Assembly (NCBI GenBank): GCA_934654605.1
Contig: CAKUGH010000009.1
Span: 1 to 47,216, forward strand
Source: an uncultured Collinsella sp.
GTDB taxonomy: Bacteria; Actinomycetota; Coriobacteriia; Coriobacteriales; Coriobacteriaceae
Length of the DNA stretch: 47,216 nt
Reading direction: 5' to 3'
Shown: positions 11,169-29,394 of the stretch, in pieces
Layout of the letters: every line of letters starts with the position of its first letter
Numbering within the stretch: the first letter of the stretch is position 1
Position numbers and translations under genes: made by a program
The notes under the pieces: model-generated
What the model saw: the letters and a program-made list of their open reading frames with translations, nothing else
Database searches by the model: none
Told to the model about the DNA's origin: nothing

Positions 11169-11370
11169 GGACAGTTAGTTCAAATTTGTATTCTTTCAGC
11201 CCTCGAAGAAGGCCACTCAACACACCTGAAGCCATCATGCGCGCGTTAACCTGTCCCAGGCTTCCATTTTTTTTGGCGCATCCGATGAGCCATTGGCTCC
11301 AAACTAACGGCCAACTCCTCAAGAAACGGTTTTCGGCCATGCTTTTTATACAAATCTGAACTAACTGTCC
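11169..11370. repeat. 202-bp inverted-repeat element, left copy
   Basis: It begins with GGACAGTTAGTTCAAATTTG and ends with the complement of GGACAGTTAGTTCAGATTTG, giving terminal inverted repeats of about 24 bp. It is exactly 202 bp long, as is its partner at 12699-12900. The interiors have diverged strongly; only the ends are clearly shared. The element encodes no transposase. Together with its partner it brackets the gene at 11537-12664. No target-site duplication is evident at its borders. Confidence 0.75.
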
Positions 11371-11536
11371 GGCACCCGTTGTAAACCTTGCCTCCAAGGC
11401 CAGACTAGCGCCCCATATTCCAATATTTCACCGCCTCTCGTGTGAACGCACTACCGCCCGCGGCGTACGACGCTCCTTTGAGCGAAAAGAACGGCACGGC
11501 AGTAGAGTTCTGCCGGCAACTTAGTACGTTATAGCT

Positions 11537-12664: not shown

Positions 12665-12698
12665 AATCCGAATTACACGCATGCCGTTGAGCGGGGCT

Positions 12699-12900
12699 GG
12701 ACAGTTAGTTCAGATTTGTATAAAGAAGAACATCGAATCGGGCTGTTTTACCGCCGTCTCCGTACAATTCGCCCCATCTAAAGGCCAGACTGGCCTCAAA
12801 ACAGCGTCAGATAGACCAGCTGGAACGTCAAAACAGCGCCGCGGCATCGAATTAGGCAATCCGGTGGCCCAAGCTTTATACGTATCTGAACTAACTGTCC
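12699..12900. repeat. 202-bp inverted-repeat element, right copy
   Basis: It begins GGACAGTTAGTTCAGATTTG and ends ATCTGAACTAACTGTCC. The ends match those of the left copy (11169-11370), and the length is identical at 202 bp. The interior is different and GC-rich, with a local AGGCCAGACTGGCCT palindrome near 12783. It starts 35 bases after the stop codon of the nuclease-fold gene and ends about 115 bases before pth. Confidence 0.75.
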
Positions 12901-13015
12901 ACCTCGGCTTTCGACGGCCGCCCAAACGCCCCCAAACAACCTCAATTGCCCTCCATTTGACAGCGGCAACAGGGTCGCTCACCATAGCAGGCGACAAATC
13001 GACGAAAGGATAAAC

Positions 13016-14860: not shown

Positions 14861-16260
14861 TTAACGGTCGTTTCGTTGCCGATATGAAGTCGCCCCGCAC
14901 CCCCGATAACGAGGAGCCGGCTGCCGAGCGCGCCTGCGACTTCCGCCCCGTCGACAAGGGCTTCACCGAGGAGATGGCGCTGGCCGAGGCCGAGCGCTGC
15001 CTCAACTGCAAGAAGCCGTTCTGTGTTGAGGGCTGCCCCGTCAACATCAACATTCCCCGCTTTATCGAGCAGATCCGCGAGAAGGACTTCGGCGGCGCTC
15101 TCGATACCATCCGCGAGGACTCCATGCTTCCCGCCATCTGCGGCCGCGTCTGCCCGCAGGAGAACCAGTGCGAGGGCAAGTGCATCCGTGGTAAGAAGTC
15201 CGAGCCCGTGGCCATCGGCCAGCTCGAGCGCTTCCTGGGTGACCGCCCCGAGCTCGCCTCCACGCCCAAGATGGCTCCCAAGAACGGCAAGAAGGTCGCC
15301 GTCGTCGGCTCCGGCCCGTCCGGCATCACCTGCGCCGGCGAGCTCGCCCGCAACGGCTTTGACGTCACCGTCTTCGAGGCATTCTTCACCGGCGGCGGCG
15401 TGCTGGTCTACGGCATCCCCGAGTTCCGTCTGCCCAAGGCGGTCGTCAAGCGCGAGATTGACGGCCTGGAGGACATGGGCGTCAAGTTTGAGTACAACTC
15501 CGTCGTGGGCAACATGGCCACGGCCGAGGAGCTGTTCGAGCAGGGCTTCGACGCCATCTACGTGGCGACCGGCGCTGGCCTGCCCAAGTTCCTCAACGTC
15601 CCCGGCGAGAACCTGCCCAACGTCTTCTTCGCCAACGAGTACCTCACCCGCGTGAACCTGATGAAGGCCAACAAGTTCCCCGAGTACGACACCCCCACCA
15701 AGCATGGCAAGAACGTCGTTGTCTTTGGTGGCGGCAACGTGGCTATGGACGCTGTCCGTACCGCTAAGCGCCTGGGCGCCGAGCACGCCATCATCGCCTA
15801 CCGCCGTACCGAGGACGAGATGCCCTGCCGTCGCGCCGAGCTGCATCACGCCAAGGCCGAGGGCGTCGAGGTTCTGCCGCTCGTCTCCCCGCTCGAGTTT
15901 GTCGCTGGCGAGGACGGCACCGTGTGCGCCGTCAAGGTCCAGAAGATGGAGCTCGGCGAGCCTGACGAGTCCGGCCGTCGTCGCCCGGTGCCCATCGAGG
16001 GCGCCATCGAGGAGATTCCCTGCGACGTCGCGATTTCGGCTATCGGCACCAACGCCAACCCCTTCGCCGCCAAGATCGGCGGCAAGATGGAGCTCAACAA
16101 GTGGGGCTACATCGTTGCCGACGAGGAGACCGGCCAGACCACCGATCCTCGCATCTGGGCCGGCGGCGACATCGTCACCGGTGCCGCTACGGTCATTCTG
16201 GCGATGGGCGCTGGCAAGAAGGCTGCCGCTTCCATCACCAAGAGCCTGCTGGGCGAGTAA
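14851..16260 (+). CDS. nfnB: NfnB-like / GltD-like NADPH oxidoreductase subunit
   Basis: A 469-residue iron-sulfur flavoprotein related to the small subunit of glutamate synthase. Two [4Fe-4S] clusters are predicted from CLNCKKPFCVEGCPVNI (about 50-66) and CGRVCPQENQCEGKC (about 98-112). The FAD Rossmann motif is VVGSGPSGITCAGEL (about 150-164), and the NADP motif is VFGGGNVAMDAVRTAKRLG (about 290-308). IWAGGDIVTGAATVILAMG is the C-terminal FAD-contact region. No large GltB subunit is nearby, so glutamate synthase is less likely than transhydrogenase or electron bifurcation with NfnA. It overlaps nfnA by 10 bases and ends at a terminator. Confidence 0.9.
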   Translation: MPLVNGRFVADMKSPRTPDNEEPAAERACDFRPVDKGFTEEMALAEAERCLNCKKPFCVEGCPVNINIPRFIEQIREKDFGGALDTIREDSMLPAICGRVCPQENQCEGKCIRGKKSEPVAIGQLERFLGDRPELASTPKMAPKNGKKVAVVGSGPSGITCAGELARNGFDVTVFEAFFTGGGVLVYGIPEFRLPKAVVKREIDGLEDMGVKFEYNSVVGNMATAEELFEQGFDAIYVATGAGLPKFLNVPGENLPNVFFANEYLTRVNLMKANKFPEYDTPTKHGKNVVVFGGGNVAMDAVRTAKRLGAEHAIIAYRRTEDEMPCRRAELHHAKAEGVEVLPLVSPLEFVAGEDGTVCAVKVQKMELGEPDESGRRRPVPIEGAIEEIPCDVAISAIGTNANPFAAKIGGKMELNKWGYIVADEETGQTTDPRIWAGGDIVTGAATVILAMGAGKKAAASITKSLLGE

Positions 16261-16288
16261 TCACCTGCAGCGCTAGCCATCAAACGGC

Positions 16289-16328
16289 AAAGTCCCCGTC
16301 GAGCACACGCCCGGCGGGGACTTTTTCT
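16289..16328 (+). terminator. Terminator after nfnAB
   Basis: AAAGTCCCCG pairs with CGGGGACTTT and runs into TTCTAT. It starts 28 bases after the nfnB stop codon. Confidence 0.85.
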
Positions 16329-16344
16329 ATGCCGGCAGCCCAAA

Positions 16345-16379
16345 ACCACCACAAAGGGGACAGGCACCTTTGTGGTGGT
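16345..16379. repeat. 35-bp palindrome (ACCACCACAAAGG family), copy 1
   Basis: Perfect 13-bp arms ACCACCACAAAGG / CCTTTGTGGTGGT surround a core of GGACAGGCA. The copies at 23361, 27389, 29001 and 29351 have the same 35-bp length. This copy stands 23 bp before the first unit of the array at 16403, the same spacing as at 23361/23419. Confidence 0.85.
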
Positions 16380-16402
16380 CTGGGGTCTGGTCGGTCGTTT
16401 TG

Positions 16403-16618
16403 TCTCGATCTGTAACACGTGGGGCCCGTTGAGCATCGTAGTTGTTACAGATCGAGATATTGCTCCAGCCGCCCCCGCTTTATCTCAATCTGTAACAGTT
16501 AGAGGCCAAATTCCTCGCTACGTGTTACAGATCGAGACGTTAGGTTGGCAGCCGAACAGTTCATCTCAATCTGTAACACCTGGAGCCCAAATATCTGGCT
16601 TGGTGTTACAGATTGAGA
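16403..16618. repeat. Array of three 55-bp palindromic units, metronomic spacing
   Basis: TCTCAATCTGTAACA and its complement alternate six times. Units lie at 16403-16457, 16483-16537 and 16564-16618. Each is 15 + 25 + 15 bp, and the gaps between units are 25 and 26 bp. Copies with CGATC in place of CAATC occur in pairs, so the base pairing is kept. The 25-bp interiors are not conserved within the array. It lies between the convergent nfnB and the giant surface-protein gene. It is not a CRISPR: the repeats alternate in orientation and no cas genes are present. Confidence 0.85.
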
Positions 16619-16655
16619 TTTTGCTGACGCCGAGGCCGAGGGCGGCCACCAAACC

Positions 16656-19600
16656 CTAGCGCTTACGGCGCTTGGTCGCGGCGACACCGGCGGCGGCGAT
16701 GGTTGCGCCGGCGATGCCCAGGGCGGTGACCGTCATCGCGGTGGTGTCGCCCGTGTTGACGAGTTCCGTGCCACTCGACTTCTTGCCGGTCTTGTCCTTA
16801 CCCTTGGACTTGTCCGTCGTCGTGGTCGTGGCCGTCGAGGTCGACCCGCCCGCAGCAGTCCCGGCGGAGCCAGTACCGCCACCTTGCTCACCGCCACCAG
16901 GCGTCGGCTGCGGCTCAGGCGACGGCTCAGGACCCGGCTCGGGTGCCACCTCATCAGTCACCGTAATCGTAATGTTCAGACGCTCAGAATACTCGCTGTA
17001 TGACATACCGGGGCGCTGCGCCGCAATACGAACGTACATGTTGCGATCGAGCGTCACGGGGCCGGTGTACTCCACGCGCCCGTCGTCCTTGCAGGGGCAC
17101 GTGTCATTGGTGGTGTACCAAATAGTGGCACCCTCCTCGGCCGAAAGCTCCAGCTTGGTACCCTTGGGCACCGTGATGTAGTTCTCCTTGGGCGACCATG
17201 CGCCAAATGTCGTCCCACCGATCACGGCCACCGGGCGCACCGGACGTACGGCCCCGGCAGACACACGAACGTCGACCTGCTTGGACAGCGCCGTGCCATC
17301 CACCGTCGCCGTCAGCGTCGTCAGACCCGGCAGAGCACCGTGCAGCACGAACGTCGCGGCGCCGTCCTCACCTGTCACAGCTTGCATGGCATCCGCAGAG
17401 CAGATGGCCTCAGAATCCAGCCCAACACTAACCGTGGCGCCGGTAAACGGCTTGCCATCCTTATCGGTCACGTATGCCACCAGCTCAAAGTCGTCGCCCT
17501 CGAGCATGGTCACCGCTTGCTCCACGTTGAGCTTGAGCTTGTCAGCCCGCATGCCCACGGTAAGCTCGCCACTCGCCCAGGCAGGCATCGCCGCGCCCGC
17601 ATAGTTGCGAGCGCCGTCGAGGTCAAAGGCAACGGTCGACCCCGTCTCGCGCGCATCGGCATAGCAGATACGCAGCACGCGCGACAGCGGCTTGCCATCA
17701 GGGTCGTCCTGCTTATCGAGCCACTTATACGTCACGTCACCCAGTCCCTGCGCGTCCAGCGCGGCCACAGCGTCATCACTCGCGTCCATATACTGCGTAA
17801 ACTCAATCTCAACACAGTCGGTATAGGCGTGAGCGGCGGCGACCTCGGGTGCCGACGTCGACACCAAGGCAATGTTCACCTCGGTCTGAATCGGCGGCAC
17901 ACGCAGCCAGGCCGAACGCGTTTCCTCGTAACCGTCCTTGGTCACGCGCACCTGATACCAACCGGTCGGCGTATTCCAGTTGTAAGCACCGTCCGCACCC
18001 GTCGCAAGCGGGTTGGCCTGCTCATACTCCTCGGCATCCCAGCGTACGGCATTGGTGCCGTCCGCATCGTCGGCACTCCACAGCTCAACCGTCGCACCCT
18101 CAACCGTGTTGGACAGCAGGCCCTCGTACACCACGCCCGCAGGGTCGGGTGCAGCCTTGGCGGCCACACTGCGATAACGCGCCTCGAAGATCGACTGCAT
18201 CTTCTCGTCCGAGATCAAACCGTCCTTGTTGGCTTTGTAGACCTCGGCATCGGTCAGCTCGCCCCAGTTGACCGTAATACGGTTCTGGCATGCGCGCTCC
18301 ACCTGCTCGCAGGCAACATCGTAAGCGCACTCGGCGTTCGTCAGCTTAATCGCGCGCTCCGAACCGACGCTCGTTGAGGCGGCGTCATAGGCGGCGCCCA
18401 CCACGGTTCCCGCCGAACCCGCCGTCAGCACGCCGGCGATCGTCATAACAGAGCCCACCGCCACATCGGTAGTGTCGTGGCAAAGCTGGCGATACAGCAG
18501 ATCCTCAAACGCACGAGCCTTCTCCATGGCATCGCGCAGCGCGTAGATGCACTTCCAGTCGTCCTCGGTTTTCTCGGGTTTGGCAAGCAAGCGTGTATGC
18601 TGCAGCTCGTAGCCCTCGCGCTCGCCCTTCACCTTCTGCATGCGGACGTTCACGTTTTCCCAGTTCTTGCTGGCATCGTTTACGCCGTAAATGCCGGTAA
18701 AGATGCCGATACCCTGAGTCGCCGCGGGAAACGCCTGCCCGGCCGCCTTCCATGCATCGGTCTTAAAGACCTGCCCGAACATCTCGCACTCGATCTTATA
18801 GCTCTTGAGCGAACGAATCGTACGAATGAGCTTCATATGCGCGCTCACATCGCCGTTGAGCTTCCAGGCCATGAGCCACCCGCGGACCTTGGAGTTATTG
18901 AGGCTATGCACCACATTCCAGTTGTCGTACAGGTTGTCCAAAATGTCGCACTGCATGGCAATCGAGTTAAACAGCAGTGCCTGGTTTTTGTTGTTATTGG
19001 AGTTCTCGATAAACTCAGACTCGATATAGGCCGTCTGCTCACCGTCGGGCGCGGCGACCTTAAAGCCCTTGACGGTATCGTCGTCGGCCGCCTTGTAGCT
19101 CAAGGAACTGCCGAGCGCCTGGCCCAGATCGCTAAACCCGCTCGTCGACTGACCCTTATACTCGCTAGCCTTAATACCTGCGCACTTGTTGAGCGCCGCA
19201 GCGGTTGCGTCATTCCAGCTGCCGTATTGGTTGAGCTGGCCGATACCCAGCGACTGACCCACCAGATCCTCGGCCTGCTGCGTAATGAACTCCGCACGCG
19301 ACGCATGGTCGACGAGTTCCTTGAGTGCCGCCGCATCCGCAGCATTCGTGCCCTGTGCCGCCGCGAGCTCCTGGTACCAGTCCTCGCTGGTTCCATAGGC
19401 GTCCTCAAAGATCATCTTATCCACGTTGACGCCGTAGCTGTCGCCCTGTTTGGTCAGCAGCGCCGACGAGCCGCCGACCGCGGCCTTAAGCTCGGCCGCA
19501 AACTGCGCGGCTTCGTCGTTGCCGCCCTCTTCGCCCTCGCCACTGCGAGCGGCGGGAGCGCGGCGGGCCTTGCGGGCGCTGCCGCCTTGGGCCTCATCGT

Positions 19601-22600
19601 CCGCTCCGGACTCCTCGTCCTTGCCGCCCTCTTCCTCGGCAAACGCGTCGGCGACCATCTGGTCGATTGCGTCGTTAAAGGCCTGGTCAACATCGTTAAA
19701 CGAGTTCTCCATCATATACTCGTGCCACTGCTGTACGGCATTCGAGAACTCCTGCTGCCGCTCCTCGGCGGCGGCGGAATGCTTTTTGGCCGAAGCGTTG
19801 GCATCAAAACTCAGCATGGTCATAAGCTGAGCATTGGAGATACGGTAGGTCTGCGGCATAAAGATCTGCTCAAAGTTTCCGCAGTTCACATAGACAGAGT
19901 CGTTTGCCTTGTTGAACTCATCGAGCAGTTTGAGATAGCCCTCGTCCACATATTCCGCCGCATAGCGCACGCGGGTGCCCTCGCGCGACTTTTGGGTCAG
20001 AGGAATCGTCACGGTCTTGCCGTCCACGCAGTCAACGTACAGGTCGAGCGTGTCGGCAGCCTCCTCGTTACCCACCTCGAGTGTGATATCGAACGTCCAG
20101 TAGGCGTTTTTCTTTTGCGGCAGGTGATGGAAGGTCCATAGGCTCTTTCCGGTGTCCTTGCCGTCCTTGACCAGGTTTTGCGTGCCGCCACGATACGTCA
20201 CATCAAAGCTCCAGACCGAGGCGCCCGGAACATAGCGCACGTAATTACGAGCCGTCACATCGGCGGCGGCCGCGGCAACATCGGTCGAGCCCACGCGCGC
20301 CTCGAGTGTCACGCGCTCGGCAGCCAACGTGTCCTGCGGCAGGTCGTATTCAATCTTGGCACGGCCCAGCTTGTTGGTCTTTCCGGTGTACTTTACGGCC
20401 GAGGCGCCCGTACCGACGGTAAGCTGCACGCTCTTGCCAGGCGCTGCGTATACGTAGGCAACATTGCCCAGCAGGCTATGGACATTGGTATTGTCGACCT
20501 CGATGCGCGAAGTATTGACTTCGAGCATGGTGCTCCCCAGCGGCAGCGTCACTTCGCCCAACGTGATGAGCGGCGAGACAACGTAGGTACCTGCAGTCTT
20601 GGGTTTAAAGCGCACAAACACATCGGCGCCCGCGCCCTTCTTCATGTCAATGACCAGATTGTCGCCCTCCCACGTTGTTCCGGTCCACCAGGTATTGGTG
20701 CTGTCACCGGCATCGCGAGAGCCTGCGGATACATCCTCGACCGCATCTTTGGCCAGCGGGATCTCGATCTTTGCCGTCTGGCTGTCCTTGAGCTCGTAGT
20801 GAATGCGCAGCTCGGTCTCCACCCCAACGACCGCAGACGAATCAGCGATAACCGAGCCCGCCGTCAGCCCGCGCTCGGCACGGTACGCCTCAACGTCAAA
20901 CGTCGGCACGTCGAGCGTCACATCGAGCTGCTTACCGTCTTCGATCTTCACCTGCTGCTGGGCGATATGCTTGCCCGCGGTCAGCCCCAGGCGGCTGAAC
21001 GTGGAATAGCTTGTCGCCTGGATGTCATAGCCTGTCTTGTTAAAGGCGACGATAGTGTAGGCACCGGCCTTCAGGCGCGGCGTATCGGCCTTCATGATGG
21101 GCGTGGTGCCATCGTCCTCGTAGCCCGTCAGATAGGTAATGCCGTCGGCAACCAGCTTGCCATCGGACGTGCGGAACACCAGCACGCGGTTGGCACCCTG
21201 ATAATCACCCTTGGTGGTCACCGTCGCCGCACCCCAAGGCTTTAGGTCGATATCGACCTTACCGGCAGACGGCTTTACGCGCGTGGTGGCCCCACCCAGC
21301 TTAAGGCTGTCCTTGGGCTTGAGCGTAATCTCCAGCTCCTGGTCCGCATCGGCAATGGCCTGTGACACCACGATCGCTGTACCCTGAATGCGATAGTCGT
21401 TTTCCTTGTCACCCTTGGCGGGCTTGAGCGTCTTTCCGCCGCTCTTCACCGTCAGGTCGATGTCTTCGAGACTATCGAGCTCAATGCGCTCGGTTTTATC
21501 CTGCCCTGCCACCGGCTCGAGATAGCCCACGTTGAGCTCAATCGCGCGGGAGGCGGGAATCTTGGTAAAGTCCGCGGCCTCGATCTCGCCGATGTCCCAT
21601 GTGCCGGTCATCTGGTCGCCCGGGCGCGCCAGCACCATGTCATAGTAGCCATCGAGCGAAAGGCGCAGCGTAGCGGCCGTCTTAGAGAGGGCATCTACCG
21701 TAAAGCTGCCGTCGGCGGCAATGTTCAGCGGCGTAGACTGCCCCGCCTGCACAAGCACCGCCGTCGCGCCCTGGGGAAGCTTGCCCGTTACCTGGGCCGC
21801 CTCGCCCATCCACTCAAACGTATAGGCGGGTTTTGACGAGTCCGCCGAATCCTTGCGGTCGGCCACGGCATCGGCGAGCTTCTTGACCATCGAGGGGTTG
21901 CCCGCCGAGTCGGTCGCATAGGCATAGATGGTCTGACCCTCGCTAAAGGGAATCGCGTACGTTACGCCATCGATTGTCACGCGATCATTATAGTCGCCAG
22001 GATAGCCCGCCTCACCAAACTGAAGGTCGGGGTTCATCACGCGCAGGGTAACTGCGTTATGGTTTATCTCGCTCCCGCCACCGACGGTGCTTGAATAGCG
22101 CGTGTTCTCAAAAGCCCACCACTCTATCTTTTCCACGCTTCCGGGCAGCACGATCTCTTTGCCGGCGATCGCGGGATCAAGAGATAAAAACGCGCTGCTG
22201 CCGATATATTTGACGCCGTCGCCAATCGTCACCGACGACACATGTGAGCACCCATTAAAGGCTTGGCGCTCAATCCGCTCCACCGTGCCCGGTACGTCGA
22301 TCTGCGTAAAGGTGAGTACCGTTGTGTCCGAGACATAGAACTGCGGCACGCCGCAATTGGCGAAGGCACGATAGTCGATAGTCTTAACCGAAGGCGGCAG
22401 CGTTGCCACCACATTGTCGTCAAGTTGTTCGCAGCCCTCAAAGGCCTGCTCGGGAATCGTGGTAAAGGCCGCGTTGTTGGGCCAGGTCACCGTCTGAAGT
22501 GTCTTGCTTCCGTAAAACGCATTCCAGCCCAGCTCCTCAACCGAATCGGGCAGCGCGATTTCCTTAATGCTGCTTCCGCCCAAGCCGCCCACCTTGCGGA

Positions 22601-23255
22601 CATGCGAATCGTCGGCGAAGGTAACCGACGTGAGCGCGGCACTTCCCATGCCCGCCAGGCTCACGACATTCTTGCCGTCAATGGTCGAGGGCACCTCCAG
22701 CGTGGTGATGCCTGAGTCGCCGTATTCGATCGAGATTTCGTTGGTGAGGCTATCAATTGAGAAGTAATACTGAGCGGGAGTCTGCTCGCCGGCTACGTAG
22801 CCATCATCGTATTCGCCCTTTACGCCCGTGGCGCCCTTTGAGGTTGCCCAGAGTTCAAGTTCCTCGTTCCAGGTTGCCTCAGCGTTGGAGGTTTCCTCTT
22901 GTTGTTGCTGCTCGGCAAGCTCCTTGCCCTCGACCAGGTCGGTTGCAAGTGTTCCCACAGGCGTGCTCTCGGTCTGCCCGGCGCCCGTCAGGCCCGCCGC
23001 CGATGCAATCTCGGAGGCCGGAGGTGTCGGGGCGTCACCGGTATCGAGCGCCACGGGGTCAGCCGCGTCGGCAGCGGCCGAGGGCTCGGCGGCAGCGGCG
23101 TCGTCCACTTGGTCGATGTCTGTTTGCACAAAGGTGCTATCGGTGGTGAGCGCCTCGGCAAACGCGCCCACGGGCAACGGACCCGTCACCATGGCGAGGG
23201 TCACCGTGGCAACGGTCAGGCGGCGGCAAAGCGCTCGAACAGTAGTCCACCTCAT
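16656..23255 (-). CDS. Giant wall-anchored surface protein with BspA-like leucine-rich repeats
   Basis: A protein of about 2199 residues. It has a signal peptide (about 1-34, ending VGAFAEA) and an Ala/Asp/Glu-rich stretch, followed by BspA-type leucine-rich repeats (about 165-390; for example SVEELGWNAFYGS and TVERIERQAFNGC). Several beta-sandwich regions come next. A charged linker (about 1205-1250) leads to a mainly helical region with a Gly/Ala-rich hydrophobic stretch (about 1595-1625). Near the C-terminus are a carboxypeptidase-regulatory-like domain (about 1735-1800), an invasin-like Ig domain (about 1920-1990) and a chitobiase-C-like domain (about 2020-2100). A Pro/Gly/Thr-rich wall spacer ends in LVNTGD, a hydrophobic helix and KRRKR. 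The ATG at 23255 follows AAGGAACGACC. It is probably an adhesin; the ligand is unknown. Confidence 0.85.
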   Translation of the reverse strand: MRWTTVRALCRRLTVATVTLAMVTGPLPVGAFAEALTTDSTFVQTDIDQVDDAAAAEPSAAADAADPVALDTGDAPTPPASEIASAAGLTGAGQTESTPVGTLATDLVEGKELAEQQQQEETSNAEATWNEELELWATSKGATGVKGEYDDGYVAGEQTPAQYYFSIDSLTNEISIEYGDSGITTLEVPSTIDGKNVVSLAGMGSAALTSVTFADDSHVRKVGGLGGSSIKEIALPDSVEELGWNAFYGSKTLQTVTWPNNAAFTTIPEQAFEGCEQLDDNVVATLPPSVKTIDYRAFANCGVPQFYVSDTTVLTFTQIDVPGTVERIERQAFNGCSHVSSVTIGDGVKYIGSSAFLSLDPAIAGKEIVLPGSVEKIEWWAFENTRYSSTVGGGSEINHNAVTLRVMNPDLQFGEAGYPGDYNDRVTIDGVTYAIPFSEGQTIYAYATDSAGNPSMVKKLADAVADRKDSADSSKPAYTFEWMGEAAQVTGKLPQGATAVLVQAGQSTPLNIAADGSFTVDALSKTAATLRLSLDGYYDMVLARPGDQMTGTWDIGEIEAADFTKIPASRAIELNVGYLEPVAGQDKTERIELDSLEDIDLTVKSGGKTLKPAKGDKENDYRIQGTAIVVSQAIADADQELEITLKPKDSLKLGGATTRVKPSAGKVDIDLKPWGAATVTTKGDYQGANRVLVFRTSDGKLVADGITYLTGYEDDGTTPIMKADTPRLKAGAYTIVAFNKTGYDIQATSYSTFSRLGLTAGKHIAQQQVKIEDGKQLDVTLDVPTFDVEAYRAERGLTAGSVIADSSAVVGVETELRIHYELKDSQTAKIEIPLAKDAVEDVSAGSRDAGDSTNTWWTGTTWEGDNLVIDMKKGAGADVFVRFKPKTAGTYVVSPLITLGEVTLPLGSTMLEVNTSRIEVDNTNVHSLLGNVAYVYAAPGKSVQLTVGTGASAVKYTGKTNKLGRAKIEYDLPQDTLAAERVTLEARVGSTDVAAAAADVTARNYVRYVPGASVWSFDVTYRGGTQNLVKDGKDTGKSLWTFHHLPQKKNAYWTFDITLEVGNEEAADTLDLYVDCVDGKTVTIPLTQKSREGTRVRYAAEYVDEGYLKLLDEFNKANDSVYVNCGNFEQIFMPQTYRISNAQLMTMLSFDANASAKKHSAAAEERQQEFSNAVQQWHEYMMENSFNDVDQAFNDAIDQMVADAFAEEEGGKDEESGADDEAQGGSARKARRAPAARSGEGEEGGNDEAAQFAAELKAAVGGSSALLTKQGDSYGVNVDKMIFEDAYGTSEDWYQELAAAQGTNAADAAALKELVDHASRAEFITQQAEDLVGQSLGIGQLNQYGSWNDATAAALNKCAGIKASEYKGQSTSGFSDLGQALGSSLSYKAADDDTVKGFKVAAPDGEQTAYIESEFIENSNNNKNQALLFNSIAMQCDILDNLYDNWNVVHSLNNSKVRGWLMAWKLNGDVSAHMKLIRTIRSLKSYKIECEMFGQVFKTDAWKAAGQAFPAATQGIGIFTGIYGVNDASKNWENVNVRMQKVKGEREGYELQHTRLLAKPEKTEDDWKCIYALRDAMEKARAFEDLLYRQLCHDTTDVAVGSVMTIAGVLTAGSAGTVVGAAYDAASTSVGSERAIKLTNAECAYDVACEQVERACQNRITVNWGELTDAEVYKANKDGLISDEKMQSIFEARYRSVAAKAAPDPAGVVYEGLLSNTVEGATVELWSADDADGTNAVRWDAEEYEQANPLATGADGAYNWNTPTGWYQVRVTKDGYEETRSAWLRVPPIQTEVNIALVSTSAPEVAAAHAYTDCVEIEFTQYMDASDDAVAALDAQGLGDVTYKWLDKQDDPDGKPLSRVLRICYADARETGSTVAFDLDGARNYAGAAMPAWASGELTVGMRADKLKLNVEQAVTMLEGDDFELVAYVTDKDGKPFTGATVSVGLDSEAICSADAMQAVTGEDGAATFVLHGALPGLTTLTATVDGTALSKQVDVRVSAGAVRPVRPVAVIGGTTFGAWSPKENYITVPKGTKLELSAEEGATIWYTTNDTCPCKDDGRVEYTGPVTLDRNMYVRIAAQRPGMSYSEYSERLNITITVTDEVAPEPGPEPSPEPQPTPGGGEQGGGTGSAGTAAGGSTSTATTTTTDKSKGKDKTGKKSSGTELVNTGDTTAMTVTALGIAGATIAAAGVAATKRRKR

Positions 23256-23314
23256 GGTCGTTCCTTTCTTGCAAACCAAAAGTCATCCAGCGTAATCGTT
23301 GCCCAAAAACAAAG

Positions 23315-23357
23315 CGAACGGTAGGTTCATATATACGAACCTACCGTTCTACCTGCG
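23315..23357 (-). promoter_or_regulatory. Surface-gene upstream palindrome, copy A (giant surface gene)
   Basis: A perfect 13-bp inverted repeat, GAACGGTAGGTTC / GAACCTACCGTTC, has an 8-base centre. The core AGGTTC...GAACCT starts 68 bases upstream of the start codon. TACCTGCG occurs 27 bases further out. Both parts recur with the same geometry at 25637 and 27464, so this is probably an operator or promoter element for a common regulator. Confidence 0.65.
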
Positions 23358-23360
23358 CAA

Positions 23361-23395
23361 ACCACCACAAAGGGGACAGGCACCTTTGTGGCGGT
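23361..23395. repeat. 35-bp palindrome (ACCACCACAAAGG family), copy 2
   Basis: Arms ACCACCACAAAGG / CCTTTGTGGCGGT carry one mismatch, and the core is GGACAGGCA, in the same orientation as copy 1. It is followed after 23 bp by the array at 23419, exactly as at 16345/16403. Confidence 0.85.
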
Positions 23396-23418
23396 CTTTG
23401 GCTTGGCTGGCCGGTTTG

Positions 23419-23554
23419 TCTCAATCTGTAACAGTAAGAGGCCGAATTTCTCGCTAGGCGTTACAGATTGAGACGTTATGTTGGCCACCCGCCGGTTCAT
23501 CTCAATCTGTAACATCTTGGGCCGTTTTGGGTGGCCAGGTGTTACAGATTGAGA
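23419..23554. repeat. Array of two 55-bp palindromic units
   Basis: Units at 23419-23473 and 23500-23554 are each 15 + 25 + 15 bp and are separated by 26 bp. The repeat is TCTCAATCTGTAACA, with CGTTACAGATTGAGA once on the right side. The inter-unit 26-mer resembles that between units 2 and 3 of the first array (CGTTAGGTTGGCAGCC versus CGTTATGTTGGCCACC). The stretch from the last unit into the C-terminal codons of the adjacent surface gene is also closely similar at both sites, indicating duplication of the whole 3' module. Confidence 0.85.
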
Positions 23555-23591
23555 TTTTGCTGACGCCGAGAACGAGGGCAGCCACCAAAAC

Positions 23592-25571
23592 CTAGCGCTT
23601 GCGGCGCTTGGTCGCGGCGACACCGGCTGCGGCAACGGTTGCGCCGGCGATTCCCAGGGCGGCGACCGTCATGGCGGTGTTGTCGCCCGTAGCAGCCAGG
23701 ACGGCGTCAGACTTCTTGGCCGGCGTGGTCTTGGTAGCCGTCTTGGTCGTGGTGGTCGTAGTGGTCGGCGCTGCAGCCGGCTTGGTGTCGGGCTTCGTCT
23801 CGGGCTGCGGCGCCGGCTTCTCGGGATCGACCGGGGCCGGCGTGGCCTCGGGCGTAAACGTCAGATCGGTGTTGAGCCACAGGGTGTAGATCCAGCCGCT
23901 GTCCTCATCGGATACGCTATCCGCGACCTGGTAGCCGCACTCCTGGCCGTTGATCACCAACTTGGTGTCGGACGTGAAGTAGAAGCCGCGCGCGGACTTG
24001 AGGTAGATGCCGTAGCGATAGGTCACGCCAGGCTTAAAGGCGTCGATGTGGTTCGTAATGTTCTGATCCCAGAACTCCTGAGAGTTCACTTCGCTGCCGT
24101 CGCTCCCCGTCCAGAACTCACACTGAGGAAGGGAGTTGGAGCCCGTCGGAACATTCGCCGTAAAGACCGGCCTGTCGCCCGCCTTAAAGGTGGTTGTGGC
24201 GCCGTTGATCTCTATAACATCGATGGCACGCCATTCGTCGATTGGCTGCTCGCACAGCATATTGGCCGCGTTGGGAGCAAATACGCCATCGACCGTCTTG
24301 ACGGTATTGCTCACCCATCGGCCGTTAACATTCACGTTGTAGTCGTCGGCCAAGGTGTTGTCGCCCTTGAGCCTCAGCTCGACGGAGTACATGTAGAACT
24401 TGCCCTCTTCGAAGTGGTCAATTTTCCTCATGCCCGGTGCGTACTTACCGGGGTCGGAATACCAGAAGGCAACGGGGGTGAGCTCTCTGGGGTTGCTGCC
24501 GTCCATCTCCTCCCAGCACTCATACGCAATCTCATACTTATCGGCGTCGGCGGCAGGAATCGTCGCGGTCGCACGCGGCGCCTCACCGGGTGCATAGTCG
24601 GTCTTCACGTCGTTGACGTTCAGGTTCTCAAGGGCTTGGCTTTCTGACGCTACGAGCGTTATGGCACTGTCGATGTTGTAGCGAATATAGTAGTCATCCC
24701 TGGTTTCGTTGATGACGACCGAACCGCTCGGCCTGTAGGCGTTGAAGATGTCATCAGGGTCGCCCACGATGATATTGTCGCCCTCATAGTCGGTTCCGGT
24801 ATACGTCAGTAACGCGCCAATATAAAGAGTCTCAGTGCGCGTGAGTCGATACGAGCCGCCCGCCGCGCCACCCGTAAAGGTCAGCGTCAGCCTCATGTGA
24901 TCGTCAACAGGCTCAAAGCGAGCCGTCACATCGGACATAGATGCGTCCTGGACTTCAGCCAGGGTGCCCGAAGCAGCATCGGCCCGGTAGTACTTGGTTT
25001 CGACAAGTTCGCGGAGCGGCTTATCCGGCATACCTCCCTCGACATCGGGAAAATTATAGGTATACGACTGGCCCTTTTCGAGTGTGACATTGCTCGGAAG
25101 CACGCAGTCCGTGTAGTGATTGACCACGGTCGTGTTGAACTTAACGCCGCCCCCGCCCGTCACGTCGGTCACACCGCAGGGCATAATGGCGTTGTCTGCC
25201 GGCATGGCGGCGTTGTCGCCGGAAGCGTTTTGCTCGGCGGGCATTGCATCGCCAGCCCCTTCGACGGTGTCAGCCAAAGATACCTGCTGAGTATCGGCCT
25301 CGTTCTGAGTTGCCGGAGCAGCATCGGTTGTCGGTGTTGTCGCCGCATTCGCATCCACCGTAGCCGCCGGCGCCGCTGCGACCTCACCCGTCGCCACACC
25401 GGGGTCCGCGCACTCGGTCGCAAGCGCCACGCTCGGCAGTAGCAGCTGACCGACCATGAGCGCACACGCGCCGACACTGGCGATCTTCACACCCACGCAA
25501 CGCCAAGTTCCGTGAACCAGCGAGCAGGTGCGCTCGCGCTGCGCCTGCTTGGCAAAATGTTGTCCTTGCAT
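23592..25571 (-). CDS. Wall-anchored surface protein with two bacterial Ig-like repeats
   Basis: A 659-residue exported protein. The N-terminus has an extended signal peptide containing QRERTCSLVHG and then a hydrophobic core ending LPSVALA (about 52). An Ala/Thr/Asn-rich stretch follows (to about 140), then beta-rich regions. Two homologous modules (about 305-420 and 440-560) share the pattern xF/YAPG-x-x-P, W, YxYxVxLR/K and xVNG. A Pro/Lys/Thr spacer ends in LAATGD plus a hydrophobic helix and KRRKR; the last 35 residues are nearly identical to those of the giant protein. GGAGG followed by ACGAC sets the start at 25571. Ligand and function are unknown; anchoring by a sortase is inferred. 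Confidence 0.8.
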   Translation of the reverse strand: MQGQHFAKQAQRERTCSLVHGTWRCVGVKIASVGACALMVGQLLLPSVALATECADPGVATGEVAAAPAATVDANAATTPTTDAAPATQNEADTQQVSLADTVEGAGDAMPAEQNASGDNAAMPADNAIMPCGVTDVTGGGGVKFNTTVVNHYTDCVLPSNVTLEKGQSYTYNFPDVEGGMPDKPLRELVETKYYRADAASGTLAEVQDASMSDVTARFEPVDDHMRLTLTFTGGAAGGSYRLTRTETLYIGALLTYTGTDYEGDNIIVGDPDDIFNAYRPSGSVVINETRDDYYIRYNIDSAITLVASESQALENLNVNDVKTDYAPGEAPRATATIPAADADKYEIAYECWEEMDGSNPRELTPVAFWYSDPGKYAPGMRKIDHFEEGKFYMYSVELRLKGDNTLADDYNVNVNGRWVSNTVKTVDGVFAPNAANMLCEQPIDEWRAIDVIEINGATTTFKAGDRPVFTANVPTGSNSLPQCEFWTGSDGSEVNSQEFWDQNITNHIDAFKPGVTYRYGIYLKSARGFYFTSDTKLVINGQECGYQVADSVSDEDSGWIYTLWLNTDLTFTPEATPAPVDPEKPAPQPETKPDTKPAAAPTTTTTTTKTATKTTPAKKSDAVLAATGDNTAMTVAALGIAGATVAAAGVAATKRRKR

Positions 25572-25636
25572 GTCGTCCTCCTTCATCGAGGGTTGTTTCC
25601 ATGGCACCACGATGCTGCAAACCGGACGCCGCGCCT

Positions 25637-25671
25637 AGGTTCGTACATGCGAACCTGCACCTTTACCTGCG
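25637..25671 (-). promoter_or_regulatory. Surface-gene upstream palindrome, copy B
   Basis: AGGTTCGTACATGCGAACCT lies 66 bases upstream of the start codon at 25571. TACCTGCG follows 27 bases from the start of the palindrome, as in copies A and C. Confidence 0.65.
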
Positions 25672-25681
25672 CAAATGCAAA

Positions 25682-25719
25682 AGCCGCCACGCGGGGACGC
25701 AAATCCCTGCGTGGCGGCT
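25682..25719 (-). terminator. Possible attenuator/terminator between surface genes 2 and 3
   Basis: AGCCGCCACGC pairs with GCGTGGCGGCT, with GGGAC/TCCC inside the loop. Read on the minus strand it lies about 50 bases after the stop codon of the 530-residue surface protein and is followed by TTTTGCATTT. It is a plausible terminator for that gene. Confidence 0.7.
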
Positions 25720-25768
25720 CAATCAAACGCACTGAGGCTTTATGCCCCGCTTGCCCTAGACGAAATTG

Positions 25769-27361
25769 CTATTCCTCGCGACGGCGCACGGCAGCGATGC
25801 CGGCTGCCGCAACCGTGGCACCAGCGATGCCCATGGCGGCAACGGTCAACGCTGCGCTATCGCCCGTGGCCGCAAGAGCGGAAGTCGTCGTCTTCGAAGC
25901 CGTGACGGATGCCTTGGCGGCAGCGAGCTTTACATTCACGGCCGAACCGGTCTGTGCCGAAGCTTGGCTCGGCGCCGGATCGGGAGCAGGCGTAGCACCT
26001 CCGTCGAATACGATATGCGCGACCTTGGCGATCTTGTCCGCATCGCGATCGGCCCTCAGGACGCCTTCGCCGGGCTCGCCAATCGTCTGTCCCCAAAAAT
26101 CAGCATATTCAAATCGGTTGCCCAGCGCCATGGGGCGGGCACCCAGTTTTTGGTAGTCACGCACCACGCCATTGGCAGGAAGCACGACCTTCCCGCCCTC
26201 GCCGATAACAATCATACCGGCAGGACCGTTGGCGTTCGTGTAGTTGTCGGCGACGATTGCCCCGTCGCTGCCCTCGGCAACAACGGAGCCGTTTTTAATT
26301 TGGATGCTTCCGCCCTCGATCGCACTCCCCGAGCTGGTATGCAGACCATACGTGTCCTTGGAATACCGATCTTTCGAGGCGCTGGCAATCGCAGTCACAA
26401 ACGTGTTCTTTCCATCGATGATGATATCGGCAGTGGCATCGTCGCCCATTCCGGCCGCCTCGATACCCACGGCACCCCACATACCATTCGAAGCATCGGC
26501 AATTGCGGTCACGAGCGAATCGCCTGCAATTTCGACACGCGCAGCACCGTTGTTGACACGGGACACAATCCCCTGAGACTCCAGGGTGGATTCGGCCTTG
26601 ACCGTCACCGTTGAGCCGGAGCCGATTGATACGCGGCCGCCTTTGTTGCTCTGCCCGTCATGTTCCCATGCAAACTCGCCGTCTTCCCCAGGTGCACCGT
26701 TAGTGGCATAGATGCCCGTCACGTAACCGTAATACCCGTCACCGGACCCCGCCGCGCGCCCTGCCTTCACATCGACAGTCGCACCGTTTTTAATGGTCAC
26801 GTCTCCGCCAAACGCAGTTATGGCCTCGGCGTTCTCGCACTCCTCGCCATTTGCATCCGTACCCGTCGCCGTCACGTTGACCGTGGCCCCGTCGACGGTG
26901 ACGTCGCCACCGGTAATACCGTTACCCGCGGCCGTGATGACATCGGTCTGGCCCGTCGCATTGAGTGTGCCGTCGCCCGTGATGGAAAGGTTGCCGCCTG
27001 AGACCTCGATGGCGCTCTGACCGGCATCGGCCGTAACGGTGTTGGTGTTGGTCACACCGATGTTGAGGTTGCCCTCGGCGCTGATACCGCCGCCGTTATA
27101 GCCATTGAGCTGCATGTCGTCGGCGCCGTTCCAAGACCACGTGCCCGCCTCGTCGCTGACGGCAGCGCCCGCGTTGTACTGCGTGCCGCCCACGTTGATC
27201 CAATCGGCTGCCAAGGCAACACTCGGCAGTAGCAGCTGACCGACCATGAGCGCACACGCGCCGGCGCACGCCAGCCTGGCACCCGCCCGTTTCCACGAAC
27301 CGTGAACCAGCGAGCAAGTGCGCTCGCGCTGGGTCTGCTTGTCAAAATGGCTTCCGTTCAT
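25769..27361 (-). CDS. Wall-anchored surface protein, beta-helix (carbohydrate-binding-like) type
   Basis: A 530-residue exported protein. The long signal peptide carries QRERTCSLVHG and ends LPSVALA, almost identical at DNA level to that of the preceding surface gene. Residues of about 60-420 form short repeating strands of the type GGDVTIKNGATVDVKAG and GGSIQIKNGSVVAEG, typical of right-handed parallel beta-helices and of the carbohydrate-binding-like repeats found in gut surface proteins. A short Ala/Ser/Pro spacer ends in LAATGDS, a hydrophobic helix and RRREE. The acidic last two residues are unusual beside the KRRKR ends of the paralogues. GGGAGG five bases upstream supports the start at 27361. 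A 35-bp palindrome sits in its 5' leader. Confidence 0.8.
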   Translation of the reverse strand: MNGSHFDKQTQRERTCSLVHGSWKRAGARLACAGACALMVGQLLLPSVALAADWINVGGTQYNAGAAVSDEAGTWSWNGADDMQLNGYNGGGISAEGNLNIGVTNTNTVTADAGQSAIEVSGGNLSITGDGTLNATGQTDVITAAGNGITGGDVTVDGATVNVTATGTDANGEECENAEAITAFGGDVTIKNGATVDVKAGRAAGSGDGYYGYVTGIYATNGAPGEDGEFAWEHDGQSNKGGRVSIGSGSTVTVKAESTLESQGIVSRVNNGAARVEIAGDSLVTAIADASNGMWGAVGIEAAGMGDDATADIIIDGKNTFVTAIASASKDRYSKDTYGLHTSSGSAIEGGSIQIKNGSVVAEGSDGAIVADNYTNANGPAGMIVIGEGGKVVLPANGVVRDYQKLGARPMALGNRFEYADFWGQTIGEPGEGVLRADRDADKIAKVAHIVFDGGATPAPDPAPSQASAQTGSAVNVKLAAAKASVTASKTTTSALAATGDSAALTVAAMGIAGATVAAAGIAAVRRREE

Positions 27362-27388
27362 AGGGGCCTCCCTCGGTCGATGGACCAT

Positions 27389-27423
27389 ACCACCACAAAG
27401 GTGCCTGTCCCCTTTGTGGTGGT
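27389..27423. repeat. 35-bp palindrome (ACCACCACAAAGG family), copy 3, inside a 5' leader
   Basis: Perfect 13-bp arms enclose the core TGCCTGTCC, which is the reverse orientation of copies 1 and 2. It lies between the regulatory palindrome (27464) and the start codon (27361) of the beta-helix surface gene. The spacing there is 103 bp; subtracting 35 gives 68, the value in the giant surface gene. This is direct evidence that the palindrome was inserted. Confidence 0.85.
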
Positions 27424-27463
27424 ATTCCTAGTCTCACCATGTGCCAAGCAATCGCATACGCCT

Positions 27464-27498
27464 AGGTTCGTAGATGTGAACCCCTATGGCTACCTGCG
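27464..27498 (-). promoter_or_regulatory. Surface-gene upstream palindrome, copy C
   Basis: AGGTTCGTAGATGTGAACCC, an imperfect palindrome, is followed 27 bases from its start by TACCTGCG. It is upstream of the beta-helix surface gene. It also lies about 100 bases upstream of the divergent LuxR gene, so it could act on both. Confidence 0.6.
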
Positions 27499-27545
27499 GT
27501 TTCATTCGAATGGATTTCGTTGTCGGTGTCTTCGCCTTAGGGCGC

Positions 27546-27551
27546 TACAAT
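27546..27551 (+). promoter_or_regulatory. Possible -10 box (TACAAT) of the LuxR gene
   Basis: TACAAT lies 38 bases before the TTG start of the LuxR gene. A 16-codon open frame starting at 27559 (MIIPSTQRTV...) ends just inside the LuxR coding region and may be chance or a leader peptide. No convincing -35 hexamer is seen. Confidence 0.35.
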
Positions 27552-27589
27552 CGAGGGCATGATTATTCCGTCCACCCAAAGGACCGTTC

Positions 27590-28993
27590 TTGAACCTGAG
27601 CAAGCCTAAAATCAACGCGCTTCTAGCCCTCGCGCTCTTTACCTTTGTCTTCCTTGCCGCCGAGTTTCGCTTCGACATCAATGTCGGGCTGCTCGCCGGT
27701 GCCGAGCGCGTTGTGCTCGCGCAAGGCTTTATCCTGGGTGCCAGCGTTATCGGCTTTATCGGATACGCGCCGCTGCTGGCCCTCGCTCAGCGCAAAGGCC
27801 AGCCCAAGGCAATCGCCACCGCCGCTGTCCCTATCGCCATTGTTGGGCTAACCCAGATTCAATCCCCCACGGGTCCGCTTGCACTCGAGATTCTGGGATG
27901 CGTGGTATTCTTTGGGCTCGGCCTGCTGGGCGCCGCCGCGCATCGCGCCTTTGCGTTGGCGTTCCAAGACGATCCCAAGCTCGCCACGGGCGCGGGGGCG
28001 GCCTATGCCGCAGGCATCCTCCTGCAGTTTGCCCTTAACCTGCTCGATTGCGGCGGCATCGTTGAGCTCATCATTCTTGGCGCGGCGACGATCATCATCT
28101 CCGCCCTCAGCGCCGCGCCCCAAGAGGCAGATGAGAACCCCAGCTCCACCATCAACCCTTTTACCGAGTCCTCACACGTCCTCGCCAAGCAGGCGTGTTG
28201 GAGCATCGCGCTCGTCATGATCTTGGCCTGTCTGTTCTCAACGCTCGATAACGTCGTCACGTTCTCCAACGCCCACGGCACCATCGCCGTGCAGACTTGG
28301 CCACGCCTCTTTTTGGCAGCGAGCGGCCTGGTCGCCGGCATCGTTTTTGATCTTGCCGAGCGTCGCTACATGGGTCCTGTCATGCTCGGTGTCACGGTGC
28401 TCTCCACCATCTCAATCTTGGCCGTGGAAGCTGGCGCCGATCCCAACCTGGGCCTCATCGTCTTTTATCTGAGCTCGGGCTTTTTCGTCACATTCTTCAC
28501 CGCCACGTTTACACAGCTGGCACCGCGTATGCACACTCCGGCTTTGTGGGCCGGCATGGGCCGCGCCGCCAACAATGTATGTGCATTCACCACATCGGGC
28601 ATCTCGCTGGCACTGGTCACCTCGGGCAAAGTCGCCCTTATCATGATCGGCGCGCTCGTGCTGCTTGTGGCGGCGAGCGTGGCATTTGTAGCTGCGGGGC
28701 TGTTCCGTCTACCCCAAACCGAGCAGGAGCGCGAACATCAACAGCTCGCCGAGGAGGCACTCGCTGCACCCAGCATCGAGGAACAGCGCCAAGCCTTCAT
28801 CGCCGACCACGGCCTCACCCCGCGCGAAGTCGACGTGCTCATGGCCGTGACCCAGGACGAGCGCCCGCTCAAGCAGATCGCCGAGGAGCTCGGCATCTCG
28901 ATGCGCATGGTGCAGCGTCACCTGAGCTCCATTTACCAAAAGACCGACACCCAAACGCGCGCCGGCCTCACCAAAGCCTTCCCCTCCGCCTAA
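27590..28993 (+). CDS. Membrane-bound LuxR-family regulator (12-TM MFS-like sensor plus HTH)
   Basis: A 467-residue protein. The first 375 or so residues contain about a dozen hydrophobic segments in an MFS-like layout, and the last 65 form a LuxR-type helix-turn-helix: GLTPREVDVLMAVTQDERPLKQIAEELGIS, split by the family's recognition helix MRMVQRHLSSIYQKT. Such proteins are abundant in Eggerthella and Collinsella relatives. They are thought to sense small molecules at the membrane and bind DNA from the cytoplasmic tail. The start is TTG at 27590, preceded by AAAGGA with a six-base gap. It is divergent from the beta-helix surface gene, so it is the obvious candidate regulator of the surface island. 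That link is inferred only from position. Confidence 0.88.
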   Translation: MNLSKPKINALLALALFTFVFLAAEFRFDINVGLLAGAERVVLAQGFILGASVIGFIGYAPLLALAQRKGQPKAIATAAVPIAIVGLTQIQSPTGPLALEILGCVVFFGLGLLGAAAHRAFALAFQDDPKLATGAGAAYAAGILLQFALNLLDCGGIVELIILGAATIIISALSAAPQEADENPSSTINPFTESSHVLAKQACWSIALVMILACLFSTLDNVVTFSNAHGTIAVQTWPRLFLAASGLVAGIVFDLAERRYMGPVMLGVTVLSTISILAVEAGADPNLGLIVFYLSSGFFVTFFTATFTQLAPRMHTPALWAGMGRAANNVCAFTTSGISLALVTSGKVALIMIGALVLLVAASVAFVAAGLFRLPQTEQEREHQQLAEEALAAPSIEEQRQAFIADHGLTPREVDVLMAVTQDERPLKQIAEELGISMRMVQRHLSSIYQKTDTQTRAGLTKAFPSA

Positions 28994-29000
28994 AACAAAA

Positions 29001-29035
29001 ACCACCACAAAGGGGCCAGGTACCTTTGTGGTGGT
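29001..29035. repeat. 35-bp palindrome (ACCACCACAAAGG family), copy 4
   Basis: Arms ACCACCACAAAGG / CCTTTGTGGTGGT with core GGCCAGGTA. It begins eight bases after the LuxR stop codon and is followed by TTTT, so it can also serve as a terminator. The next array starts 32 bp further on, not 23 bp as at the two other arrays. Confidence 0.85.
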
Positions 29036-29067
29036 TTTCAATAGCAGCGGTTTACTCTGCCAGTTTG

Positions 29068-29202
29068 TCTCAATCTGTAACATCTAGGCCCTTAAAAGTA
29101 GGCTAACTGTTACAGATTGAGATTATTCCGCTCGGCTCCGCACTTTATCTAAATCTGTAACAGATAGAGACGATTTAGCCGCCCAGATGTTACAGATCGA
29201 GA
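29068..29202. repeat. Array of two 55-bp palindromic units
   Basis: Units at 29068-29122 and 29148-29202, each 15 + 25 + 15 bp, are separated by 25 bp. The inter-unit sequence (TTATTCCGCTCGGCTCCG...) resembles the first gap of the array at 16403. One arm reads TCTAAATCTGTAACA against TGTTACAGATCGAGA, so that pair carries mismatches. It lies between the convergent LuxR and cytidylate-kinase-like genes. Confidence 0.85.
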
Positions 29203-29228
29203 CAGTAAAGGAAACTAAGCGGTACCCG

Positions 29229-29303
29229 CCCTTGAGTTTCTTGAGCACCCTTGAGTTCTTTGAGCATCTTTGAGTTTCTTGAGCACCCTTGAGTTCTTTG
29301 AGC
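29229..29303. repeat. Tandem repeat of about 18-19 bp
   Basis: Four tandem copies alternate between CTTGAGTTTCTTGAGCAC and TTGAGTTCTTTGAGC, giving a higher-order period of about 37 bp. The tract lies between the palindromic array and the cytidylate-kinase-like gene. It shows no ribosome site or clear coding signal. Confidence 0.75.
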
Positions 29304-29350
29304 GAACGACCATCAGCAGCGTCGGTTGCCCTCCTCCGCCTAAACCAAAA

Positions 29351-29385: not shown

Positions 29386-29394
29386 TTTGGTCGG

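Follow-up and report, generated by a model that had tools for sequence, protein, structure and literature searches.

Alternating intergenic arrays of paired 15-bp repeats in the Collinsella aerofaciens clade as candidate sites for a DNA-binding protein

The window, the whole 47,216-nt stretch of DNA from an uncultured Collinsella sp. (contig CAKUGH010000009.1) that was analyzed here, carried three arrays of a 15-bp arm (Table 1). Array A is followed by an island with the genes for a 2199-aa LRR surface protein and a LuxR-type regulator and two more large genes. The arms of array A started at positions 16403, 16443, 16483, 16523, 16564, and 16604, alternated between the plus and the minus strand, and were separated by gaps of 25, 25, 25, 26, and 25 bp. 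The number, alternation, and spacings of the six arms were exactly those given in the original prediction. Two inverted arms and the interior between them formed a unit of 55 bp (15+25+15). The same geometry had been claimed for two further places, at 23419 and 29068, with seven units overall, and both arrays were found, with three units in array A and two each in arrays B and C. When up to three mismatches were allowed, the 15-mer gave 15 matches in the window, compared to a mean of 0.33 and a maximum of 2 in shuffled sequences; one of the 15 (29156-29170) was an overlap artifact of an arm end and its interior. The sequence at 23411-23690 was an 86% copy of 16475-16754 (280 bp), so array B is not independent of array A. 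It is a duplicate of part of array A and of the tail of the neighboring surface-protein gene. No match to Rfam (at the gathering score) and no tRNA was found in the window. Folding had been proposed as a check, and every unit in the window paired its arms on paper.

Table 1. Positions of arrays, units, linkers, and the island in the window.
Feature	Positions	Strand	Remarks
Array A	16403-16618		3 units
Array A unit 1	16403..16457	+	arms 16403-16417 and 16443-16457, interior 25 bp
Array A linker, 25 bp	16458..16482	none	
Array A unit 2	16483..16537	+	position 5 differs between arms (A vs G)
Array A linker, 26 bp	16538..16563	none	
Array A unit 3	16564..16618	+	
Island, 12.7 kb	16636..29332	none	missing from G003, L011, L112; arrays B and C inside
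Array B	23419-23554		2 units
Array B unit 1	23419..23473	+	within copied stretch corresponding to array A unit at 16483
Array B linker, 26 bp	23474..23499	none	
Array B unit 2	23500..23554	+	within copied stretch corresponding to array A unit at 16564
Array C	29068-29202		2 units
Array C unit 1	29068..29122	+	
Array C linker, 25 bp	29123..29147	none	
Array C unit 2	29148..29202	+	positions 4 and 5 differ between arms

Other repeats were present in the same region. A second palindromic family (ACCACCACAAAGG...ACAGGCACC...) was found at 16327-16382, 23343-23398, 27371-27426, 28983-29038, and 29333-29388; one copy ended some 20-30 bp ahead of each of the three arrays, and two copies were located elsewhere. 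A relative of this family with a GGGACAG center was common in G038, a genome free of arrays (at least 24 matches in 400 kb, L190-L209). About 30 bp past array C, a 19-bp tandem repeat (TTGAGTTTCTTGAGC...) was located at 29232-29303. Four related copies of GGACAGTTAGTTCAGATTTGTATAAAG were present in alternating orientation at 11169-11191, 11345-11376, 12690-12725, and 12874-12909 and are possibly the ends of a small mobile element.

Units with at most two mismatches were counted in 43 genomes of the genus Collinsella. Twenty-two genomes had 25-66 units, three had one, and 18 had none, while the reversed control pattern had no match in any of the 43. The exact pattern was found in the same 22 genomes (17-44 units) and as one unit in G037, and was not present in the other 22 of the 65 genomes in the family set. 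The 22 array-bearing genomes were exactly those with a best DXS match 95-100% identical to the query (next best 68%), and we use the name C. aerofaciens clade for these genomes with at least 95% DXS identity. The arrays are restricted to this clade. The window aligned to stretches of G003 and G001 at 84-96% over long pieces, mostly above 92%, which places it, judged from the alignment, probably in the same clade. In 400 kb of the 2.46 Mb of array-free G038, a fixed-gap search for similar arrays with other arms gave as top matches only a different palindrome family.

A scan of contigs with a free gap of 8-38 bp recovered at least 120 stretches, of which at least 107 were titled Collinsella. Among the 80 matches listed, all Collinsella interiors were 25 bp long except for one of 24 bp (L017). 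G001 contained 51 forward and 52 reverse arms (at most one mismatch; none for the reversed control pattern), and the arms among the matches listed were arranged in alternating arrays. A wider search for the 15-mer pair, also proposed in the original prediction, bore out the fixed geometry. Over all 137 loci, including non-Collinsella and viral ones, the gap from a direct to an inverted arm was 25 bp in 333 of 341 consecutive pairs, and the linker from an inverted to a direct arm was 25 or 26 bp in 214 of 223 cases (25 bp in 126, 26 bp in 88, 24 bp in 8, and 23 bp in 1). In sixteen further pairs of neighboring arms, both arms pointed the same way, and the gap was 17 bp in 15 of these pairs. No partner at 40 +/- 1 was present for 37 of 1105 arms; of the 25 listed among those 37, 16 were overlap artifacts. 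Twelve loci from non-Collinsella genomes, L110 (labelled Coriobacteriaceae), and the viral loci L122-L137 were dropped before the other counts, units with an interior other than 25 bp were dropped from the loop statistics, and arrays without 300-400 bp of flank from the orthology tests. Near-identical units were removed for the de-duplicated tests (409 to 109 in the pairing test, 316 to 109 in an earlier count). A contig of a viral collection (IMGVR_UViG_2857861838_000001) carried a two-unit array (L121:908-1043), which may be the host flank of a prophage.

The 838 distinct half-sites had the consensus W W Y R - TCT H R ATCTGTAACA - N N W R G - N SSSS N - WWW, with the dyad at the end, and the 15-bp arm was TCT-H-R-ATCTGTAACA. 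In these half-sites the outer position -4 was A or T in 96-97%, position -1 was a purine in at least 99%, position 5 was a purine, and position 18 was A or T in 99%. The dyad positions 27-29 were A or T in 96-98%. Positions restricted to A/T therefore sit beside the arms and make up the dyad center. Most half-sites had TAG at positions 18-20, and together with the preceding base this gave GTAG in 17-19%. A CGTC tag was not present in the half-site consensus from -25 to +27. The arm consensus had no internal stem, and a palindrome existed only at the level of the 55-bp pair. An A/T periodicity near 10-10.5 bp was modest, with further peaks at 8 and 14. The information in the 15-mer alone was about 26 bits, summed over half-site positions. 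This exceeds the need of 50-130 half-sites per genome and also suits an origin from a transposase or recombinase.

The divergence of 110 orthologous array pairs was 3.9% in the arms, compared to 14.6% in the interior, 12.2% in the linker, and 15.5% at the edges; these pairs had the same unit number and layout and interiors differing at 0-50%, and due to shared ancestry they are not independent. About three fifths of the arm divergence fell on positions 4 and 5 (10-26% there, 0-5% at the other 13). In 279 nearest-orthologue comparisons, with reciprocal ones counted twice, 92 of 96 changes at position 5 were A/G, 19 of 24 changes at position 18 were A/T, and G was involved in 2 of 57 changes at position 4. 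In the same comparisons, the dyad positions 27-28 changed in 2.5-3.6%, and their interior neighbors in about 7-13%. As far as these rates indicate, the arms are kept by selection at orthologous sites and reflect neither chance nor recent copying. If gene conversion had homogenized the arms, two positions would not be expected to stay free within an otherwise fixed 15-mer. Chance regularity from recent duplication, named beforehand as the outcome that would speak against a special element, applied to array B as a copy of part of array A, but it did not explain the arrays in general, since their interiors differ and orthologues of many of them are present in other genomes.

It had further been claimed that changes are shared between the arms and keep the pairing. 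Shared changes were real in unit 1, but units 2 and 7 had unshared changes at the same positions. Among 109 de-duplicated units (of 409), position 4 was identical between the arms in 78 units and position 5 in 58, where 78.2 and 54.6 were expected, so sharing was about as frequent as chance predicts. There were 27 perfect arm pairs compared to 22.0 +/- 3.7 by permutation, and 147 arm mismatches in total compared to 153.8 +/- 6.1. Pairing was slightly above chance but statistically not significant (0.113 and 0.153 of permutations were at least as good). The earlier count with sorted orientation gave the same absence of covariation, and compensatory changes between the arms did not exceed chance in the 109 units. 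The covariation check thus did not support the claim that arm changes keep the pairing. The two free positions vary in one arm independently of the other, so selection for pairing is not visible. This counts against mechanisms that depend on base pairing between the arms, whether in RNA or in single-stranded DNA. A role of pairing is only disfavored, because most units would still form a stem from positions 6-15.

According to a simple codon-usage gene caller, the 58 arrays in the window and in the G001-G003 stretches were all intergenic. They were located in 22 convergent, 22 tandem, and 14 divergent gaps. The background of 326 gaps of at least 100 bp, which includes the array gaps, comprised 62 convergent, 183 tandem, and 81 divergent gaps; convergent gaps were thus enriched about two-fold among the arrays. 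A terminator-like hairpin was found between gene end and array at 27 of 54 facing gene ends and at 7 of 54 on the control strand, counts that hinge on a looser rule, since a general terminator tool found none at 16240-16680, where our script, which accepts loops of up to 12, placed one near 16288-16324. None of 116 array strands scored as a terminator itself. The 39 flanking proteins from the window and G003 were diverse (EF-Tu, DXS, GH1 enzymes, LacI and DeoR regulators, Nramp, and a Clp-type ATPase, among others). A regulon was rejected, as the 39 flanking genes showed no evident common pathway, and this is expected of a structural element.

The bias of arrays towards dnaA was weak, with p values of 0.035 (G003) and 0.055 (G002), and of 0.039 and 0.174 after clustering, for 17 arrays per genome and with the G003 units being those among the matches listed. 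Avoidance of the terminus as in nucleoid occlusion was thus weak and was rejected as an explanation. The protein families surveyed were PF02195 (ParB_N) and PF01797 (Y1_Tnp), and no binding protein emerged from these two. ParB_N counts failed to separate array-bearing from array-free genomes, and ParB/Noc was rejected as the binder. In G002, the DnaA ATPase family had sixteen matches that fell into one group of 7 and one of 9, each group with a single score; these are probably helper ATPases of insertion sequences.

The number of units differed at orthologous sites, e.g., from 2 to 8 at one locus. A single deletion fitted 100 of 243 orthologous pairs with unequal unit number; the other 143 fitted none. 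The best junction in these 100 fits was in the arm in 75, at the unit center in 19, and at the linker center in 6. Of the eight distinct center fits listed, six beat the next model by at most 0.01, and the other two, both to L093, joined units whose half-interiors already match. These fits show in part that unit losses mostly fit junctions within the arms. An unrelated interior between conserved outer contexts was observed at 4 of 82 orthologous unit sites, most clearly in unit 3 beside DXS, where 20 of 22 array-clade loci had an array (L227 showed none, and the sequence of L231 ends early). An invertible interior was rejected, as it was flipped in none of 620 context-matched unit pairs. Among 835 unit pairs that shared only the left context, the interior matched in the left half only in 59 and in the right half only in 27. 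Half-interior sharing was found in 271 pairs, compared to 113-186 in 10 runs of a null that ignores ancestry. Near-identical interiors in arrays with unlinked flanks made up 307 pairs, and among the unlinked pairs listed, many had a single interior type that occurs in a GH1/LacI gene cluster. Arrays were also gained or lost, because no array was present beside the shared gene in 26 of 230 comparisons with synteny kept.

Gene order was broken in 44% of comparisons at 49 array sites (per-site average) and in 16% at 251 control gaps. Most subject loci had been picked for holding arrays, so the effect sizes need an unbiased genome set. The excess was significant against 165 control gaps of at least 150 bp (p 1.8e-8) and was seen for convergent (48 vs 27%), divergent (22 vs 10%), and tandem gaps (43 vs 12%). 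In a second count with a stricter identity cut, an array still adjoined the shared gene in 90 of 123 broken comparisons. In these 90, only the near unit matched in 35, only the far unit in 15, both in 24, and neither in 16. The island in the window was found partly in G001. G003 jumps from window position 16635 to 29333 within about 25 bp, and L011 and L112 share this junction, so the island sits between array A and a cytidylate-kinase gene. Its left edge lies 17 bp past array A and its right edge about 130 bp past array C. The right edge is formed by a copy (29333-29388) of a different palindromic repeat, so candidate junctions are not limited to array A. A table of species by share of gene-transfer insertion-site samples includes, in the part of PMC7771070 considered here, three Collinsella genomes, which fits the array turnover but does not test it.

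Several mechanisms could produce such arrays. In a REPIN-like mobile element, the inverted doublet would fold when single-stranded and a RAYT transposase would copy it, and tandem clusters of intergenic inverted doublets are the published REPIN layout (PMC3116915, in an excerpt). PF01797, taken here as the Pfam family holding RAYTs, was present in 37 of 43 genomes. The 307 interior pairs with unlinked flanks, the replacement of whole interiors at 4 of 82 sites, the missing arrays in 26 of 230 comparisons, and the TAG or GTAG next to the arm are also consistent with a mobile element. However, array-free genomes have PF01797 as well, and none of the 10 RAYT-like stretches read, which surround longer ones among 85 PF01797 matches, carried arms at up to two mismatches. 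RAYT was rejected as the mobilizer for these two reasons. Furthermore, the arm is not self-palindromic, single arms are rare, many arrays are orthologous at the same gene pair, many of the listed unlinked pairs share the interior type of the GH1/LacI cluster, and the 109 units showed no hairpin-preserving covariation. We consider a REPIN-like element unlikely. In L182, L184, and L189, GGGGACAGACTTAAATGAG-type repeats were present on both sides of central PF01797 matches, which suggests that ordinary repeats linked to RAYTs, with a different sequence, exist in Collinsella. Recombination sites would require that a site-specific recombinase binds the arms, exchanges at the A/T dyad center, and swaps gene modules. 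The excess of synteny breaks, the arrays kept beside the shared gene, with more near-only than far-only matches, the island that begins at array A, and the half-interior chimeras (59 left, 27 right) agree with this. The junctions of unit loss, in contrast, were mostly in arms, the listed center fits won narrowly or joined matching half-interiors, no interior was inverted, and half-interior sharing was only about twice a null that ignores ancestry. The chimeras that first suggested dyad-center recombination are mostly explained by arm-mediated unit loss, and we regard recombination sites, as a rival account, as quite improbable.

The original prediction had offered two readings, an RNA of stacked equal hairpins or a DNA array for a dimeric protein. 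Transcribed hairpins could act as mRNA 3' ends, stabilizers, or attenuators, and the folding of the window units on paper and the enrichment of convergent gaps are in line with this. Yet the arms do not covary, the A/T-only and purine-only rules extend beyond the stem, 14 of 58 arrays lie between divergent genes, half of the facing gene ends have a terminator-like hairpin ahead of the array, no array strand scored as a terminator, and the window had no Rfam match. Because of the lack of covariation, the terminator position, and the placement between divergent genes, the RNA reading was disfavored and appears highly improbable. The DNA reading was supported by the constraint on each arm and by the purine-only, A/T-only, and rarely-G rules, since pairing leaves such degenerate rules unexplained; the sites were conserved position by position, regardless of the partner. 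Paired double-stranded sites are favored over RNA or cruciform hairpins because each arm is constrained, the arms are independent, and A/T-only positions are present.

We think it rather probable that the units are paired, dyad-symmetric double-stranded DNA sites for a putative sequence-specific protein, which would be oligomeric and would structure the chromosome or insulate genes in a BIME-like manner. A unit would provide two inverted 15-bp half-sites around an A/T dyad center, with A/T and purine positions on the outer side of each half-site and the A/T position 18 on its inner side. The putative protein would bind the pair, probably as a dimer or a larger oligomer, and would bend the interior, and tandem units at 80/81 bp would allow binding in rows. 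It may then structure the chromosome or insulate neighboring genes, a role that we infer by analogy to BIMEs. The higher turnover of gene neighborhoods at arrays and the unit losses at arm junctions, which our data show in part, would be a side effect. More tentatively, the arrays could be rows in which a chromosome-architecture protein specific to the C. aerofaciens complex docks, with paired sites at a 40-bp pitch unlike those of Noc, SlmA, MatP, or gyrase/IHF-BIMEs, and the rows could also be preferred junctions for the exchange of surface-protein and sugar-use modules; we hold this as possible but doubtful.

With about 50-130 near-identical half-sites per genome in a lineage of the human gut, and with selection on the arms at orthologous sites, the putative DNA-binding protein should be recoverable by one pull-down. 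If it organizes the chromosome, the paired-site architecture would add to a small set of comparable systems, and the synteny result connects the putative protein to gene turnover in gut bacteria. If the repeat is mobile, it differs from known REPs in having no self-palindromic repeat and, at the loci read, no link to RAYTs.

A literature search covering open-licence PMC papers found no description of the 55-bp repeat. Like CRISPR, the arrays have constant repeats with variable sequence of fixed length in between. Unlike the direct repeats of CRISPR, the Collinsella repeats alternate in orientation, and their interiors have a dyad consensus of their own. Noc, SlmA, and MatP are chromosome-organizing proteins with tens of sequence-specific sites per chromosome, and these sites are short palindromes. 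The Collinsella half-sites are likewise dispersed, many per chromosome, and sequence-specific in their candidate role, but they form 63-bp paired sites in rows with a weak bias towards dnaA. With the REPIN-RAYT system, as far as it is presented in part of PMC3116915, the arrays share the inverted doublet with a spacer, the tandem clusters, and the intergenic location. They differ in that they are often found at the same gene pair in related genomes (DXS, 20/22 loci), the arms are constrained singly and few occur alone, the hairpin between repeats is not visibly maintained, and the 10 RAYT-like loci are not flanked by the arms. BIMEs are described in a section of PMC2817692 as regularly spaced repeats in alternating orientation. 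The earlier statement that no named element has this layout was therefore too strong, since this description matches the arrays, which are also intergenic, interspersed, regularly spaced, and alternating. A REP is itself a 20-40 bp palindrome, and most have a GTAG or CGTC tag at one end (PMC3733652, in the part considered). The Collinsella repeat, in contrast, is a non-palindromic 15-mer, its half-sites have no conserved GTAG/CGTC tag (G at position 17 in 17-19%), its interior is fixed at 25 bp and variable in sequence between arms without covariation, and no arms were present at the 10 RAYT-like loci read. On balance, these sequences are best read as BIME-like arrays between genes, in which a putative protein would bind paired sites on double-stranded DNA.
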